Positions 329 through 6,305 of a stretch of 25,700 bases of DNA are shown piece by piece (the stretch's first letter is position 1; each line of letters opens with the position of its first letter). This DNA comes from a virus: IMG/VR virus record IMGVR_UViG_3300013104_000070, positions 1 to 25,700 of that record; one strand, given 5' to 3'. Position numbers and translations under genes: made by a program. The notes under the pieces are model-generated. The model had not been told where the DNA came from and ran no database searches. It saw only the letters and a program-made list of their open reading frames with translations.

Positions 329-486
329 GAAGGCTTCCTTTCGTGGTGCGCTTTTGCACCGAGGTAGAGGACGGTCACCATGACGGCGAAACCGGCGAGG
401 ATGGGGAGCGCGGGCCACACGAACAGGCAGCCGGCGAGAACGGTCAGGAAACCGATTGGGAAGGCGACGTGGAATGCGAGGTTCAT
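325..486 (-). CDS. Small two-helix membrane protein
   Basis: 53 aa, start MNLAFHVAFPIGF at 484-486, ending TGA at 325-327 inside the start codon of the repeat-protein gene. Nearly the whole chain is hydrophobic: helix one about residues 4-24, helix two about 26-44, then a charged tail (KAHHERKPS). The start overlaps the upstream stop by four bases (ATGA), indicating translational coupling. No family recognised. It may support the neighbouring small membrane protein at 647-883, but nothing in the sequence proves this. Confidence 0.7.
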   Translation of the reverse strand: MNLAFHVAFPIGFLTVLAGCLFVWPALPILAGFAVMVTVLYLGAKAHHERKPS

Positions 487-650
487 CCCGCATCCTCCAC
501 GTGTTCTGTTTTGCAGCGCGGGCATTCCCACGTCAGCTCGGTGAGTGATAGTTCCGGGTCGTAGTACAGTTCGGCTTCGTCGTGGTGGCCGCATGATGGG
601 CAGGTGCGCTCCCGGTAGAAGACCTGCTCCCGTTGGCCTGACGAGATCAC
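483..650 (-). CDS. Small zinc-ribbon protein
   Basis: 55 aa if the GTG at 648-650 is used. That start makes a GTGA overlap with the upstream stop, matching every junction in this operon; an in-frame ATG at 663-665 would give 60 aa but lacks a ribosome site. Two CxxC knuckles (CPSC and CPRC) are separated by about 30 residues, a rubredoxin/zinc-ribbon layout expected to bind one zinc. The segment between is acidic. Such proteins are frequent among actinophage early genes; the role (nucleic-acid or protein contact) is unknown. Confidence 0.7.
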   Translation of the reverse strand: MISSGQREQVFYRERTCPSCGHHDEAELYYDPELSLTELTWECPRCKTEHVEDAG

Positions 651-883
651 CGCGACCACACCCATGCCGCTGTGAGGCCGAACGGGACCGCGATGATGAC
701 GATGTGGAAGATGACTTCCCGCCATGACATGAACGGTTCACGTCTGCGCTGGTGACGTGCGACCGGGCGAACCTCAACCAGCGCCCGGTACGTTTCGGGG
801 CACTCGCACTGACCAACGCCGTCCCACCTGTCGAGCTGGGACAGGTCGGTGCCGGGGCGGATGTAGGTTGCGCGGCGGGTCAT
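647..883 (-). CDS. Small protein with C-terminal membrane helix
   Basis: 78 aa from the ATG at 881-883, which overlaps the preceding stop as ATGA. The N-terminal ~50 residues are soluble and contain a CEC motif and a basic stretch (RHQRRREPF). The last ~25 residues (IFHIVIIAVPFGLTAAWVW) form one transmembrane helix, so it is probably a tail-anchored inner-membrane protein. An internal ATG (MSWREV, 728-730) could give a 27-aa helix-only product but has no ribosome site. No family recognised. Confidence 0.6.
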   Translation of the reverse strand: MTRRATYIRPGTDLSQLDRWDGVGQCECPETYRALVEVRPVARHQRRREPFMSWREVIFHIVIIAVPFGLTAAWVWSR

Positions 884-1371
884 GACTCGACCCCGAACTC
901 AGCGAATAGTGCACGCAACTGCTTGCCCGTGTATCGGTGGTCGTAATAGCCGCCGTCACCCGTGTTGTCTGAGCGGATGCGGTCGAGAATCCGCCTGGCA
1001 GTCTCGGCTGCCGGTTCGAGCTTGGTGAATGGAAGCAAGGAGCGGTAGATGCCTGACATGTCGTCCGCGTCGAACGAGACCGCCACTGAACCGTCACCGT
1101 TGTTGATCCATTCGCCGTTCTTGTGGAGCGTCCACATACCCCCGTGCTGGTCGGCGTAAATCCCCGGATCTTCCGGCAGCTTCGGCTTGGCCTTCTCGAT
1201 GACGGTGAGCGTGAAGCCCTCGCGCTCAAGCACCTCGATGGGCATGTCGAAGGTGACGCACGGCACGACCAACCGAGATGTGATCTCGGACACCTTTAGC
1301 CGCCCACGAATCACCGTCTCGCCCCCGACCGCTTCCACAAGGTCGCCTTCGTTGAACTCGGCCCCGTTCAT
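880..1371 (-). CDS. Phage early protein of unknown function
   Basis: 163 aa. The start chosen is the ATG at 1369-1371 (MNGAEFNEGDLVEAV), whose ATGA overlap with the upstream stop outweighs the ATG 12 nt further upstream. The N-terminal part (GDLVEAVGGETVIRGRLKV) looks like a small beta-barrel such as those in phage 'beta barrel' proteins. The middle (about residues 70-105) is rich in Trp, Gly and Asp (GGMWTLHKNGEWINN) and shares its 'WTLHKNGEW' style with the plus-strand protein at 6821-7006. The C-terminus is a helical segment ending LRALFAEFGV. No catalytic motif seen. Confidence 0.75.
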   Translation of the reverse strand: MNGAEFNEGDLVEAVGGETVIRGRLKVSEITSRLVVPCVTFDMPIEVLEREGFTLTVIEKAKPKLPEDPGIYADQHGGMWTLHKNGEWINNGDGSVAVSFDADDMSGIYRSLLPFTKLEPAAETARRILDRIRSDNTGDGGYYDHRYTGKQLRALFAEFGVES

Positions 1372-1685
1372 GCGAGCGCCCAAACCGTTGACGCGCGACC
1401 CGACACTGTGGGGCGCACCTCATCAGACGCAACCAGCACACCCTTCTTCGCCAAATCACTTCGGCGCTTGCGAGGCGAATCAGGGTGCGTGTCATAACCG
1501 AAGAACTGCCGGTAAGCGCGCGACAACTCCTCATCCGTCATGCCACCCAAACGGGCGAACAGGAAATGCACCTGCTCTTCCACGGCAGCTCGGGTCGTGT
1601 TCGAGTCCGCCGCATCATGTGACGTTTGCGGATCGGACAAGCGCGCTCTTGCCGTGTCATCTGGCAGAATGGTTCGTGTAGACAT
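1368..1685 (-). CDS. Winged-helix-like phage DNA-binding protein
   Basis: 105 aa from the ATG at 1683-1685, preceded by a strong ribosome site (GGAAGGGAAAG). The N-terminal DPQTSHDAA motif followed by a helical region (MTDEELSRAYRQFFG...PRKRRSDLAKKGVLV) and a short C-terminal beta strand (RASTVWALA) is the layout of a family of small actinophage proteins thought to fold as winged helices: helix, recognition helix with Arg/Lys, then a wing. Likely a DNA-binding accessory or regulator of early gene expression; the target is unknown. A 7-bp hairpin sits just upstream of its ribosome site. Confidence 0.7.
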   Translation of the reverse strand: MSTRTILPDDTARARLSDPQTSHDAADSNTTRAAVEEQVHFLFARLGGMTDEELSRAYRQFFGYDTHPDSPRKRRSDLAKKGVLVASDEVRPTVSGRASTVWALA

Positions 1686-1739: not shown

Positions 1740-2078
1740 TTAGGACTGATCTGAGCCAGCGAGGATGTCGGTGATGGCGGATAGCTGCGCGATCGAGATG
1801 TCCCGTGCGTTGCGTAGCTCGACACCGAGGGCACGAAGCGTGGCCAGTAGTGCGGTTCGCGCCTCCCGGTCCGCCCACTCATCGGGCCTGTAAATCGCCC
1901 CGCCGATGTAGCCGCCCGCATCCTCTGCGCCGCTCTCCGCGAAGAACTTCCGCTCCCGCCCGTACTGCTCGATGTAGACGAACTTGCGACCGACGCGGGA
2001 GATAACCGTCGAGAACGGCTCGCCCACGCGGTTCGGCGTGGTCACTATGACTTCCTGCCCCAGCGTGTATTTCGCCAT
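1740..2078 (-). CDS. Beta-barrel domain phage protein
   Basis: 112 aa from the ATG at 2076-2078 with ribosome site AGAAGGG. Residues 1-50 (KYTLGQEVIVTT...FSTVISRVGRKFVYIEQYGRERKFF) have the pattern of the small SH3/KOW-like beta-barrel found in actinophage 'beta barrel' proteins. Residues 75-110 form two helices (ARTALLATLRALGVEL, SIAQLSAITDIL). The same barrel-plus-helices layout recurs in many phages of this kind; the role is unproven, plausibly nucleic-acid contact. The leader resembles that of the 74-aa gene upstream (AGAAGGGnATGCC). Confidence 0.7.
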   Translation of the reverse strand: MAKYTLGQEVIVTTPNRVGEPFSTVISRVGRKFVYIEQYGRERKFFAESGAEDAGGYIGGAIYRPDEWADREARTALLATLRALGVELRNARDISIAQLSAITDILAGSDQS

Positions 2079-2459: not shown

Positions 2460-2664
2460 GTGGCATTCCCTTCTGTTGTGCGAATCTCGCGTGCCAGTGC
2501 GCCGATCTGTGAGCGCACGCCCTGGCTGGTCAGCCCGTCCTAGTCACCCGCGGCCCCTCTAGACCCGACATGTGACCGTGTAGCAGCGCGACCGGACATG
2601 AAGCCCATGAGGAAGTCGCGCCCCCGTAAATAACTGACCCGTGATGTTGCTTGCACCCCGAGCA

Positions 2665-2690
2665 GTTCGCCCCCGCATTGCCGGGCGAAC
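2665..2690. other. Strong hairpin downstream of boxA
   Basis: Perfect 8-bp stem GTTCGCCC (2665-2672) with GGGCGAAC (2683-2690) and a 10-nt loop. No T run on either side, so it is not a classical intrinsic terminator. Its position downstream of boxA on the minus-strand transcript makes it a possible pause or processing structure. Confidence 0.5.
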
Positions 2691-2728
2691 CACCAGCCGA
2701 AGCTTGTGGGGTGTGTACTGCACGCTGT

Positions 2729-2745
2729 GGAGTTCTCAAAGAGCA
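2729..2745 (-). promoter_or_regulatory. rRNA-operon-like boxA antitermination element
   Basis: Minus-strand sequence TGCTCTTTGAGAACTCC, followed by ACAGCGTGC. Its first eight bases equal the E. coli rrn boxA core TGCTCTTT. The longer form matches, from memory, the boxA of actinobacterial rRNA leaders (TTTGAGAACTC, usually followed by AACAG). BoxA RNA is bound by NusB-NusE(S10), which helps RNA polymerase pass terminators. Placed about 270 nt before the first of eight genes, it probably supports processive transcription of the early operon. Confidence 0.6.
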
Positions 2746-2816
2746 GTCGCCCCCTTCCGTGTGGACCGGGGCCGTGGTGCGAATCGACGTGTTTTGGGTA
2801 CGCCGATTAGTGCTGG

Positions 2817-2840
2817 GGTGACCGGACTGTGAGGGTCACC
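2817..2840 (-). terminator. Hairpin after the GIY-YIG gene
   Basis: GGTGACC (2817-2823) pairs with GGTCACC (2834-2840), extendable by CTG/CAG across a mismatch, starting 14 nt past the TAA at 2855-2857. No T run follows on the minus strand, so it is at best a weak or factor-assisted terminator separating the switch genes from the boxA leader. Confidence 0.35.
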
Positions 2841-2854
2841 GCAGCTGGGGTGTG

Positions 2855-3199
2855 TTAGTAGTGCGCGCCTGTGCTGTAATCCGGCTGGGGGGTGCCGTCC
2901 AGGGAAGCGCCGAACTGCGCGCCACGGTCGCGGACAAGCTGCACGAACGGCTCGAAGTCTGCGAAGAAATACTCATTGCCCCATGCGGGGATCGACTGGT
3001 ATTTGCCGATCCAGCGCATGACCTGCTCCATATGTGGCGCGTCGGGGTGTTCCACGATGAGACTTTCCGTCATCTCCGCACCTCGATTGCGAGCCTGACC
3101 AGCAAGAGCGCGCATGCGCCGCTCGGGTGAACCGGTCATGCCGATCTTCACTACGCGGTCGGAGAATGCGACGATGTAGACGTGAGTCGGGGCGCTCAT
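2855..3199 (-). CDS. GIY-YIG (T5orf172-type) domain protein
   Basis: 114 aa; start ATGA-coupled to the upstream gene. The N-terminus VYIVAF...VVKIGMTGSPERRMRAL is a GIY-YIG signature: strand VYIV, strand VKIG, then a helix with the conserved Arg (SPERRM). A conserved-type acidic/aromatic NEYFF follows near residue 75. The size and motif spacing fit the T5orf172/Mug113-like subgroup, which is common in phages and usually stands alone. Family members are presumed nucleases, but activity is rarely shown. A role in early DNA metabolism or host DNA attack is inference. Confidence 0.8.
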   Translation of the reverse strand: MSAPTHVYIVAFSDRVVKIGMTGSPERRMRALAGQARNRGAEMTESLIVEHPDAPHMEQVMRWIGKYQSIPAWGNEYFFADFEPFVQLVRDRGAQFGASLDGTPQPDYSTGAHY

Positions 3200-3396
3200 C
3201 GTTCCTCCCGCGAGTAGGGGAGTGTTTCGAGCCAGGCGTTCAGCTCGGCTGCGAGGATGAGGCGTTTGCGGCCCGAGTAGCGGGCGGTCAGCTTCTCGTC
3301 TTTGATGGCCTGTTCAAGTGTCGGCACGGAGAGGCCAACAGCGGCGGCGGCATCCTTGATCGGATACGCGAGCGGGGCCTGGGTGGGGGAGGCCAT
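3196..3396 (-). CDS. Excisionase-like helix-turn-helix protein
   Basis: 66 aa. The sequence YPIKDAAAAVGLSVPTLEQAIKDEKLTARYSGRKRLI followed by AAELNAWLETLP has the AlpA/excisionase layout: helix-turn-helix, a two-strand wing with Arg/Lys, and a C-terminal helix containing WL. It starts at ATG 3394-3396, sharing one base with the preceding TGA (TGATG), so it is coupled to the Cro-like gene. This is one of two such proteins in the window; the other (3993-4178) lies beside the integrase. This one is probably an early regulator or a second directionality factor. Confidence 0.75.
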   Translation of the reverse strand: MASPTQAPLAYPIKDAAAAVGLSVPTLEQAIKDEKLTARYSGRKRLILAAELNAWLETLPYSREER

Positions 3397-3644
3397 CAGC
3401 CTTCAACCCCTACGCGGTTCTTCGCCCGCTTGGTCAGTTCGTAGTCGGGGACTCCCAAGAATCTGCCGATGGCTTCAAGCTCTTCCACGTAGAAAGGGCG
3501 CGTGCCTTCGAGCCTTCTGTAGAGTGTCGATGCGGAAATGCCGGTGCCGGCAGATAGCTTCTGAATGGAAACCCTCTGCCGGCCCAGCTCTGCGCGAATC
3601 TCAGCAGCGAGGCTGATTCTTCTTAGGGGGCGGTGTTGACTCAT
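3396..3644 (-). CDS. Cro-like XRE helix-turn-helix regulator
   Basis: 82 aa. Residues 10-60 carry an XRE-type HTH (AEIRAELGRQRVSIQKLSAGTGISASTLYRRLEG): helix 2 KLSAGTG, turn, recognition helix SASTLYRRL. It is divergently transcribed from the HTH gene at 3721, across a region with three operator-like sites, one covering this gene's own start codon. It heads the minus-strand early operon, which makes it the likelier Cro (lytic) partner, but the two roles could be reversed. No ribosome site is visible; a CATACT box seven nt before the ATG suggests a leaderless transcript. Confidence 0.8.
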   Translation of the reverse strand: MSQHRPLRRISLAAEIRAELGRQRVSIQKLSAGTGISASTLYRRLEGTRPFYVEELEAIGRFLGVPDYELTKRAKNRVGVEG

Positions 3645-3710
3645 GTAAGTCAGTATGACCGGTATAGGTCAACTTTGCAAGTCTTTATGAAAATTGACCT
3701 ATATGTGTCA
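3637..3710. promoter_or_regulatory. Immunity operator region with three 16-bp sites
   Basis: Three copies of an inverted-repeat site with pattern TGAC-N8-GTCA: TGACTCATGTAAGTCA (3637-3652), TGACCGGTATAGGTCA (3656-3671) and TGACCTATATGTGTCA (3695-3710). The first overlaps the start codon of the minus-strand HTH gene; the last lies just before the plus-strand HTH gene at 3721. TATAGGTCAA and TTGACCTATA also form a perfect 10-bp inverted pair across the centre. TTGCAA boxes on both strands are candidate -35 elements for the divergent promoters. The spacings of 19 and 39 bp fit dimers on one helix face or a DNA loop. Confidence 0.8.
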
Positions 3711-4178: not shown

Positions 4179-4399
4179 ATCGTGCCCCCGTTAGGTATCT
4201 GACTTATGTTCGTCATTCCGTTGCTATGACCATAAGCGAAGCCACAGACAACGAAAGACCCGCCCGGCGTGACCGTGAAGGCCAGCCGGGCGGGTGAGTT
4301 CCGCGTCATTTCGCGGATGAGAGATGTTATTCTGTCGGGGTTAATGGGGACATCCGGAACTTGTTGACGTGCCCCGTAGTGGGGGTCAGTGAGCTTCAA
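4175..4399 (-). CDS. Doubtful small ORF between int and xis
   Basis: 74 codons from a TTG at 4397-4399 inside the end of the integrase gene; its TGA overlaps the xis start as TTGA. That coupling is the only argument for it. Against it: no ribosome site, no recognised motif, and a very stable 11-bp inverted repeat plus an operator and the xis promoter region all lie within it. A shorter ATG start would give 44 aa. I consider non-coding leader/terminator DNA the more likely reading. Confidence 0.3.
   Translation of the reverse strand: MKLTDPHYGARQQVPDVPINPDRITSLIREMTRNSPARLAFTVTPGGSFVVCGFAYGHSNGMTNISQIPNGGTI
4200..4215. promoter_or_regulatory. Operator-type site upstream of xis
   Basis: TGACTTATGTTCGTCA has the TGAC-N8-GTCA pattern of the three sites in the immunity region and the same length of 16 bp. 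It ends 22 bp upstream of the xis start codon on the minus strand, where a bound repressor would block transcription. About 0.4 such sites are expected by chance in the whole window at equal base use; this is the fourth within 580 bp. Confidence 0.65.
4258..4295 (-). terminator. Long hairpin between int and xis
   Basis: Perfect 11-bp inverted repeat ACCCGCCCGGC (4258-4268) / GCCGGGCGGGT (4285-4295); the 16-nt interior adds a further 5-bp stem (TGGCC/GGTCA). On the minus strand CTTTCGTTGT follows, a moderate T-rich tail typical of high-GC terminators. It would end the integrase transcript before xis, letting int be expressed without xis unless polymerase reads through or xis has its own start. 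Confidence 0.55.
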
Positions 4400-5651
4400 T
4401 CATTAGTGCAGACATGCGCTTCATCGCGTCTTGCAATTGCGCATGGTTTCCCCGCGACTTGTAGCCACGCGTCACCGACACAACGGAATGCCCCACGATT
4501 TCCTGAATGATCGCCTCGGGGACTTCCGCCTGATAGAGCAGGTCAACGGTCGTATGACGGGCATCATGCAATCGCGCATCCTGCACGCCGGCCAACTTCA
4601 ACACGTCATGCCATGCGGCGTTGTCGCGGGACGGGTCGATGGGGGAGCCGTTCGGTTGCGTCCACACCAGCTTGTGCGGGTTGTCCTCCTGCACTGATTG
4701 TTTCTGCCGGGCCTCGAGGATCCCGTAGAGTGGCTGCACGAGGGGGATGAGGCGCACGCTCCGGTGCGACTTGGGGCGCGACCACCACAGGCCGCCCGTG
4801 ATGTGCTTGTGCTCCCAGTCGGCGGGCGCATCAATACGGCGCTTCGGGCACTCGGCGGCGCGTTTCCGGTTGCATGTGCCACCGCACCCGTGCTGCCACG
4901 CCACCCGCTGTAACTGCCACGACAGGTCGATGGTGCCGTTCAGGAAGTCAACGCGGTCCCACGTCAGGCCGAGCAGTTCACCCTGTCGCGCTCCTGTCAG
5001 CAGGGCAGCAGCCCAGCGCGACCTCAAGCGGTCAACAGCGAGCGGGGGAGGCCACCCGGAGACAGCCTGAAGCACTTTTATCCCGTCATCGGCGGAGAGT
5101 ACGGTTAGCTCCGTTTTCTTCGTCCTGGGGCGGTTTACGAGGTCGGTGACGATGCGCGTCACCTTGCCCTCCCGGTAGGCGGCTTTGAGCCCGAGCGCGA
5201 GAACCTGGTAGGTGAGCGCGGCGGATCGCGAGCTGAGCCCCTTTTCGGTCACGTACTTGATGCATGTGCGCACGTCATCGGGGGTGAGCTTCTTCAGCTG
5301 CTTCCTGCCAATCGACGGCACGATGTACTGCTCAACGGTCGTCCGGTAGCTCGCGGCAGTCTTCGGGCGTGCTTCTGGGCCTGCAACGTCTCGCAGCCAT
5401 TTGCGCATCCATGTGGCGACGTTCAGGGTCGCCGTTTCGATGTCGCCGCCGTTCTTGTCCCGTTCCCGTCGAAGCTCAATCAACTTCGCCTTCGCGGCGG
5501 CTTCCTGCTGCTTCCCGGTGCCCTTCGCTGGCACGGTCCGGGTGACGCGGCGTTGTTTCCCGTCCGGAGACGGAAGTGAAAGGGTGGCGCACCATCGCTG
5601 GTCCGAGGCGCGGAAGTACACGCTGCCGTCGCCGTTTGAGCGCTTGACCAT
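4386..5651 (-). CDS. int: Tyrosine integrase
   Basis: 421 aa from ATG 5649-5651 with ribosome site GGAAAGG; an upstream in-frame ATG (5735) has none. Residues 1-65 are an arm-binding N-terminal domain (GDGSVYFRASDQRWCATLSL). Residues 75-180 form the core-binding helical domain. The catalytic domain has R222 (TGARQGE), K294 (RPKSHRS), H362 and R365 (LHDARHT), H388 (GHSV) and nucleophile Y397 (RGYKS), so it is complete. A Cys-rich insert (C256, C260, C268) between R222 and K294 may bind zinc and is seen in other actinophage integrases. It should recombine the attP at 6253 with the host tRNA-Lys gene. The leader contains two hairpins. Confidence 0.95.
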   Translation of the reverse strand: MVKRSNGDGSVYFRASDQRWCATLSLPSPDGKQRRVTRTVPAKGTGKQQEAAAKAKLIELRRERDKNGGDIETATLNVATWMRKWLRDVAGPEARPKTAASYRTTVEQYIVPSIGRKQLKKLTPDDVRTCIKYVTEKGLSSRSAALTYQVLALGLKAAYREGKVTRIVTDLVNRPRTKKTELTVLSADDGIKVLQAVSGWPPPLAVDRLRSRWAAALLTGARQGELLGLTWDRVDFLNGTIDLSWQLQRVAWQHGCGGTCNRKRAAECPKRRIDAPADWEHKHITGGLWWSRPKSHRSVRLIPLVQPLYGILEARQKQSVQEDNPHKLVWTQPNGSPIDPSRDNAAWHDVLKLAGVQDARLHDARHTTVDLLYQAEVPEAIIQEIVGHSVVSVTRGYKSRGNHAQLQDAMKRMSALMIEAH

Positions 5652-5676
5652 CAGTCGCCTTTCCGCGCAGGAAGAC

Positions 5677-5700
5677 GCGGGGACCATTTCGCGTCCCCGC
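5677..5700 (-). other. Hairpin before the integrase ribosome site
   Basis: Perfect 8-bp stem GCGGGGAC (5677-5684) / GTCCCCGC (5693-5700), 8-nt loop, 26 nt upstream of the int start. On the minus strand the sequence after it (GTCTTCCTGCGCGG) is not T-only, so it may act as a leader structure affecting int translation or as part of an attenuator. Confidence 0.5.
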
Positions 5701-5742
5701 GCCTGCTCTTTGCAATGTTCAATTGATTCCCCCATCGGGCGA

Positions 5743-6165: not shown

Positions 6166-6252
6166 GCCCATTGGCTTACACAAGTCATGGTTGGTAGTAG
6201 AAACCGCGTAATAACGCGGAAGTCCCGTATTTGTGCGGCCCAAAATGGGGCA

Positions 6253-6305
6253 AGCAACTGACTCTTAATCAGTGGGTTCCGGGTTCAAGTCCCGGGGGGT
6301 GCACC
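6253..6305 (+). other. attP: attP core: 3' half of tRNA-Lys(CTT)
   Basis: From AGCAACTGACT onward the sequence is the 3' part of a tRNA-Lys: anticodon stem ACTGA/TCAGT (6257-6273) with loop CTCTTAA (anticodon CTT at 6264-6266), T-arm CCGGG-TTCAAGT-CCCGG (6279-6295), acceptor 3' strand GGGGTGC (6296-6302), A73, CC. The 5' half is absent: upstream bases do not form a D-arm or a GCACCCC acceptor strand. Integration into the host gene would therefore rebuild a complete tRNA. Strand exchange would be expected in or near the anticodon region, as in other tRNA-targeting phages. Confidence 0.9.

Follow-up and report, generated by a model that had tools for sequence, protein, structure and literature searches.

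A host-like ribosomal RNA boxA in the presumed early leader of a temperate phage and its recurrence among actinophages

An rrn-type boxA lies in an untranslated leader of a temperate tailed phage, known from a 25.7-kb fragment that includes terminase and tape-measure genes (hereafter the window, meaning the whole stretch of DNA that was analyzed). Judging from sequence comparison, this boxA probably recruits the host factors NusB-S10 and NusA for rrn-like processive antitermination of the early operon, and the same solution appears to be used by many unrelated actinophages. Control of a phage early operon through boxA and Nus factors is of a known kind, and the putative rrn-type form in actinophages is a new variant of it. 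The original prediction had regarded such a form as undescribed for phages of this sort; this agrees with the open-access full-text literature, in which we found neither a description of boxA in actinophages nor an N analogue described for them, although agreement with open-access papers is not proof of novelty.

Results

The predicted 17-mer TGCTCTTTGAGAACTCC was confirmed by an exact-match search, which found it once in the window, on the minus strand at 2745-2729; no second site was present even when three mismatches were allowed (0.07 expected from shuffling). The eight bases that it was said to have in common with the E. coli rrn boxA were borne out against the gamma-proteobacterial consensus GYTCTTTAANA (PMC5725501), from which the window element departs past TTT, with GAGA in place of AANA. 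The element does resemble actinobacterial rRNA leaders, and over a longer stretch than had been noted: when aligned with the rrn leader of the predicted host family, CTTTGAGAACTCcACAGCGTGCA (2741-2719) is identical in 22 of 23 bases to the Microbacteriaceae 16S-leader boxA CTTTGAGAACTCAACAGCGTGCA, taken directly from genomes. At the base composition of the window, only 2e-8 matches to this 23-base boxA with at most one mismatch would be expected by chance. The complete element, TGCTCTTTGAGAACTCCACAGCGTGC, consists of boxA proper, TGCTCTTTGA, and the AGAACTC.ACAGCGTG part that is conserved in actinobacterial rrn leaders, and it fits the actinobacterial rrn-type sequence TGnTSTTTGAGAACTnMAYAGYG.

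The non-coding stretch that holds the boxA measures exactly 395 nt, as predicted, from the stop codon of the 114-aa ORF to the start codon of the 74-aa ORF (Table 1). The boxA lies in untranslated RNA, sense to the presumed transcript, and the ORFs overlapping it are short and spurious (no longer than 69 aa). These observations support a host-like boxA inside an untranslated leader ahead of the downstream gene run; the leader is presumably transcribed in this phage, and from their position we take the genes after it to be early genes. The description of these as eight coupled genes held in part, as there are overlaps at 1371/1368, 883/880, and 725/647, but the first two genes after the leader (end 2235, start 2078) are separated by 156 nt. 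Annotation of some short ORFs in the run is uncertain, and the run of short, partly overlapping genes extends to the end of the record. Between the first two genes, at 2181-2227 on the minus strand, is a 47-nt tRNA-like fold (fold z -2.8), in which a stem of 7 bp (GCCAGCG/CGCTGGC) resembles an acceptor stem and the hairpin GGAGG-TCCGAAT-CCTCC a T arm, with a short hairpin of 4 bp besides; the fold received no call from ARAGORN or Rfam; at the end of the run, positions 1-202 hold 8.4 copies of a 24-bp tandem repeat.

Table 1. Features of the window, with strand and the evidence for each.
Feature	Position	Strand	Evidence
rrn-type boxA element	2720-2745	-	exact match; 22/23 rrn identity
Untranslated leader bearing boxA, 395 nt	2460-2854	-	ORF table
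Structured RNA, three-way junction, just 3′ of boxA	2654-2713	-	fold z = -2.5
Genetic switch, three operator-like palindromes (3637-3652, 3656-3671, 3695-3710)	3637-3710	.	palindrome scan
Cro/C1-type HTH protein, 82 aa, gene 1 of the leftward transcript	3396-3644	-	PF13443 above cut-off; phrog_4583 2.4e-15
Excisionase-like HTH_17 protein, 66 aa	3196-3396	-	PF12728 5.9e-8; phrog_66 1.9e-5
T5orf172/GIY-YIG-like protein, 114 aa, last before leader	2855-3199	-	PF10544 E = 0.0013, just under cut-off
First gene past leader, 74 aa	2235-2459	-	no relatives found
Second early gene, 112 aa, phage ProQ C-terminal-like domain	1740-2078	-	PF24203 1.5e-18; phrog_3032 7.4e-15
Other overlapping short genes of the early run (1368-1685, 880-1371, 647-883, 483-725)	483-1685	-	ORF table; phrog_1123 for 1368-1685
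Integrase	4386-5735	-	
tRNA-derived attP, beside integrase	6235-6303	+	Rfam tRNA 31.8 bits

A consensus promoter scan found no promoter. The switch region, in which HTH genes diverge, contains a weak candidate for the early promoter on the minus strand, TTGCAA (3680-3675) and CATACT (3657-3652) with a spacing of 17; as no convincing promoter was seen between 2855 and 2746, some 900 nt separate the boxA from the presumed start, which is not the arrangement of rrn operons. The leader gave no Rfam match even at E ≤ 5, in a search with models other than a dedicated put model. Its three-way junction is made of a closing stem CACCCC/GGGGTG, an AGC-UUCG-GCU hairpin, and a long GUUCGCCC...GGGCGAAC hairpin without a U-tract. 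One viral contig, L040, shares both the boxA and a structured region about 10 nt downstream of it, with the UUCG hairpin and the junction; its closing stem (CCACCTC/GAGGTGG) differs in sequence from that of the window and also pairs, a covariation that is only suggestive because it involves two sequences. We also considered the hairpin pair AGCTTCGGCT...GGCAnTGC as a wider RNA family and rejected it: 63 contigs matched and only L040 had a good boxA just upstream, so the arrangement is common to two phages only.

Terminase comparison places the phage nearest to prophages of Curtobacterium (74%) and Microbacterium (72%), so its host is most likely one of the Microbacteriaceae. The integrase had no relatives among the genome contigs searched, nor did the first early protein (74 aa) among viral contigs and phages. 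A 40-bp stretch of the attP is 97.5% identical to one in Brevibacterium phages AGM1-16. The closest prophage by terminase, that of Curtobacterium, has a diverged boxA, CCTTCAGAACTCAACAGCG, at the corresponding position, where HTH and xis-like genes precede it; a match this good was reached in 0 of 200 simulations. It is the only one of the terminase-related prophages with a boxA; none was present in the stretch read of the Microbacterium and Cellulomonas prophages with related terminases, or in the other phages checked alongside them.

The ribosomal boxA itself was surveyed in host genomes. The pattern TTTGAGAACTnnACAG matched in 102 of 200 Microbacteriaceae genomes, and its reversed control had no match in these 200 genomes or in 149 Actinomycetota genomes. 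Nearly all genome matches that could be placed were in rrn leaders or 16S-23S spacers. In the Microbacteriaceae, the 16S-leader kind, CTTTGAGAACTCAACAGCGTGCAC, lies about 160-210 nt upstream of 16S, and the spacer kind is TTTGAGAACTACACAGTGGACGCGAGC; the boxA of the window phage is of the leader kind. Among 52 placed rrn sites, position -4 was G in all 52, position -3 was T, A, or C, and position -2 was T or A. The variants CAACAGCG, CAATAGTG, GCACAGTG, GAACAGTG, and AAATAGTG occurred in both genomes and phages.

We scanned IMG/VR contigs with the pattern TTTGAGAACTnnAYAGYG, using the same pattern read backwards as the control. Matches were found in 111 contigs compared with 62 for the control, and the excess was concentrated in high-GC contigs (74 vs. 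7; Fisher p 5e-13), or 42 vs. 2 once sites under an ORF of at least 100 aa were excluded. Many AT-rich matches of the first patterns, which were coding and chance matches or members of one-gene families, were left out. After removal of similar flanks, about 62 non-redundant flank classes remained, a few of them probably due to chance; the window is one of these classes. At positions that the pattern had not specified, G was found at -4 in 54 of the 62 classes (p 1e-20) and A or C at +12 in 60, while A or T was favored at -3, T at -2, and C or G at -1. There was no clear conservation past the motif, with information near zero on both sides. With constraint at -5 to -1 and at +12 and none beyond, the conserved unit ends where the rrn boxA ends; the phage motif thus covers the same bases as the rrn boxA and shares much of the variation tolerated there, in unrelated surroundings. 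The distance from boxA to start codon is about 261 nt in the window (2720 to 2459) and has a median of about 320 nt in the other contigs. In unannotated contigs, 38 of 51 sites were sense-oriented, a moderate bias to which we give little weight because the crude gene caller used cannot be relied on for high-GC DNA. C/T variation at position 14 of the motif seemed likely to follow the host, but Kumao and Manuel are exceptions, and we make no claim from it.

Two BLAST searches with short leader pieces gave 75 and 105 records; the two sets overlap in part, and some of the records are chance matches. Within unannotated stretches, boxA turned up in Likavirus and Beephvirinae of Streptomyces (Immanuel3, FlowerPower, Manuel), the Arthrobacter phage Amigo, the Gordonia phage Bantam, the Corynebacterium phage Stiles, and Mycobacterium cluster A-type phages, Kumao, and Pharaoh. 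A search with the element of the window itself also found weaker versions in RosePharie and Abafar. In all 11 annotated genera examined (Likavirus, Immanueltrevirus, Flowerpowervirus, Manuelvirus, Amigovirus, Bantamvirus, Fromanvirus, Gladiatorvirus, Pharaohvirus, Kumaovirus, and Samwavirus, with Streptomyces, Mycobacterium, Arthrobacter, Gordonia, and Corynebacterium as hosts), the boxA occupies a leader that has no annotation, in sense orientation and ahead of the first early gene annotated. Several have a TTGACA-17-nAnAGT promoter 10-120 nt upstream of the boxA, and in Adzzy, EricB, Lika, and FlowerPower this promoter ends 21-118 nt before it; Pharaoh (L447) has tandem TTGACA promoters with a separate boxA after each, at 732 and 1006, and in Immanuel3 (L193) a weaker additional box lies at 757. 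In most of the phages named here, the early transcript has no annotated gene ahead of boxA. Stiles is laid out like the window, with a repressor, an HTH gene, an antirepressor, and one more gene followed by a 546-nt non-coding gap with boxA and then the early genes. The run after boxA includes ArdA-type antirestriction genes in RosePharie and Bantam and an exonuclease in Stiles. The expectation that relatives would carry the element thus held for many unrelated actinophages, where it recurs in sense orientation and outside annotated genes, but not for D29, Bxb1, SWU1, RedRock, and Kampy, whose early leaders at the right ends have no boxA. The element is not universal among actinophages.

Discussion

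In the mechanism that we propose, polymerase would start at the operator-flanked switch promoter near 3650, pass the cro-like, xis-like, and T5orf172-like genes, and transcribe the 395-nt leader. The host NusB-S10 heterodimer would then bind boxA proper of the RNA UGCUCUUUGA-GAACUC-CACAG (2745-2720), while NusA, given the identity with the rrn boxA, would bind the AGAACUC-ACAG part. The structure of M. tuberculosis NusA with RNA reportedly used AGAACUCAAUAG, which is the second half of the phage motif. The Nus complex would travel with polymerase as it does in rrn operons, resisting Rho and possibly also U-less hairpin terminators in and beyond the untranslated leader, so that transcription would run through the full early operon and the phage would exploit the rRNA antitermination machinery of its host. 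In E. coli, NusB and NusE (S10) associate with boxA of the rrn operons, and the resulting complex is considered to block termination by Rho (PMC4807359, PMC5725501). In M. tuberculosis, NusA exerts its effect through an rrn nut site contained in the first 63 nt of the transcript (PMC12781872). The actinobacterial rrn boxA, which works with NusB, S10, NusA, and NusG, is among the closest known counterparts of the phage element, being likewise in an untranslated leader and having the same constrained positions in the phage set; the phage element differs in preceding protein-coding genes and, in the window, in its distance from the presumed promoter.

That a bare host boxA, with neither a phage antiterminator nor a boxB, is the sole antitermination signal in a large polyphyletic set of actinophages is a bolder proposition, which we hold tentatively and with slightly more doubt than belief. 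If true, it would make early expression directly dependent on the host rRNA transcription machinery. Among the scanned window proteins there was no N-like protein or family match, with the qualification that sequence comparison easily misses diverged N analogues, and it is possible that a phage factor is encoded further downstream on the early transcript. The phage element can also be compared with HK022 put, a two-stem RNA that acts directly on polymerase. Both are proposed to act in cis without a phage protein, but the boxA signal would be linear and based on host factors.

Other roles for the element have to be weighed. The window boxA resembles lambda nutL and nutR in lying in the early transcript after a cro-type gene and before early genes, and it may be a lambda-like nut site at which a phage RNA-binding antiterminator, an analogue of N, is needed on an adjacent phage-specific stem. 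The nutR geometry, the stable stems near boxA, and the ProQ-C-like domain encoded by the second early gene are consistent with this. We nevertheless think it quite unlikely, since the element is of the full rrn type with the actinobacterial AGAACTC.ACAG extension, no boxB-like conserved stem was seen and no N-like gene was recognized among the window proteins scanned, the 62 leaders have no conserved second motif beside boxA (although a phage-specific stem may vary in sequence), and no common small basic protein was seen near it. Nor would chance, or a functionless relic of an rrn leader acquired by recombination, readily explain the data. Some lineages can evidently do without the element, as the diverged Curtobacterium copy and the absence of boxA from other relatives show; against this, the flanks of the 62 classes share nothing while the motif stays, and the chance expectation in the window is minute, which makes this explanation extremely improbable.

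The Nus factors may instead be recruited to another end, either tuning or lowering expression as at E. coli suhB or assisting the folding or processing of leader RNA, and the phage leaders are indeed long, structured, and untranslated. In gamma-proteobacteria, boxA occurs outside rrn operons before prsA, rpsJ, and ParE-like toxin genes and can repress, suhB being such a target (PMC5725501). Those regulatory boxAs have the gamma-proteobacterial consensus and were looked for no more than 50 nt from a start codon, far closer than in the window or in the other contigs, and read-through accounts better for sites that follow early promoters and precede whole operons; we therefore regard a regulatory role as unlikely. 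A decoy, in which abundant boxA RNA titrates NusB-S10 and NusA and shuts down host rRNA synthesis, is suggested by the cluster A mycobacteriophages, whose Pleft yields a stable, extremely abundant, host-toxic non-coding RNA of about 500 nt (PMC5712189). The corresponding leader does contain boxA in some cluster A-type phages (Adzzy, EricB, Pharaoh). However, D29, SWU1, RedRock, and Kampy are reported makers of Pleft RNA and lack boxA there, and most leaders have a single boxA and no array, so that a decoy is very improbable. The cluster A leader is also instructive for antitermination, our preferred reading: it is likewise a long untranslated leader before leftward early genes and is strongly transcribed, and in L5 about 90% of transcripts end before gene 89 with no recognizable terminator (PMC5712189). 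It is on such a drop that an antitermination signal would act, although the phages of this type that carry boxA are others than those studied by RNA-seq, whose readable leaders are without it.

Little is known of how transcription in actinophages gets past untranslated leaders and along long early operons. A boxA of host origin, present in phages of Streptomyces, Mycobacterium, Arthrobacter, Gordonia, Corynebacterium, and, as we infer, Microbacteriaceae, would be a simple answer. NusB would become a candidate host factor for the phages that bear boxA, actinobacterial expression vectors would gain a ready-made element for read-through, and Nus-boxA regulation outside rRNA would reach beyond gamma-proteobacteria.

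Two minor observations concern the contigs. Five AT-rich ones (L216, L232, L269, L272, and L276; 26-27% GC) contain non-coding GGCTCTTTGAGAACTCTATAGCG, an rrn-type boxA, and are maybe from phages of low-GC hosts. In five others (L020, L030, L032, L041, and L048), boxA follows soon after the 3′ end of an apparent tRNA gene, and here a tRNA and the early mRNA may be on one boxA-bearing transcript.
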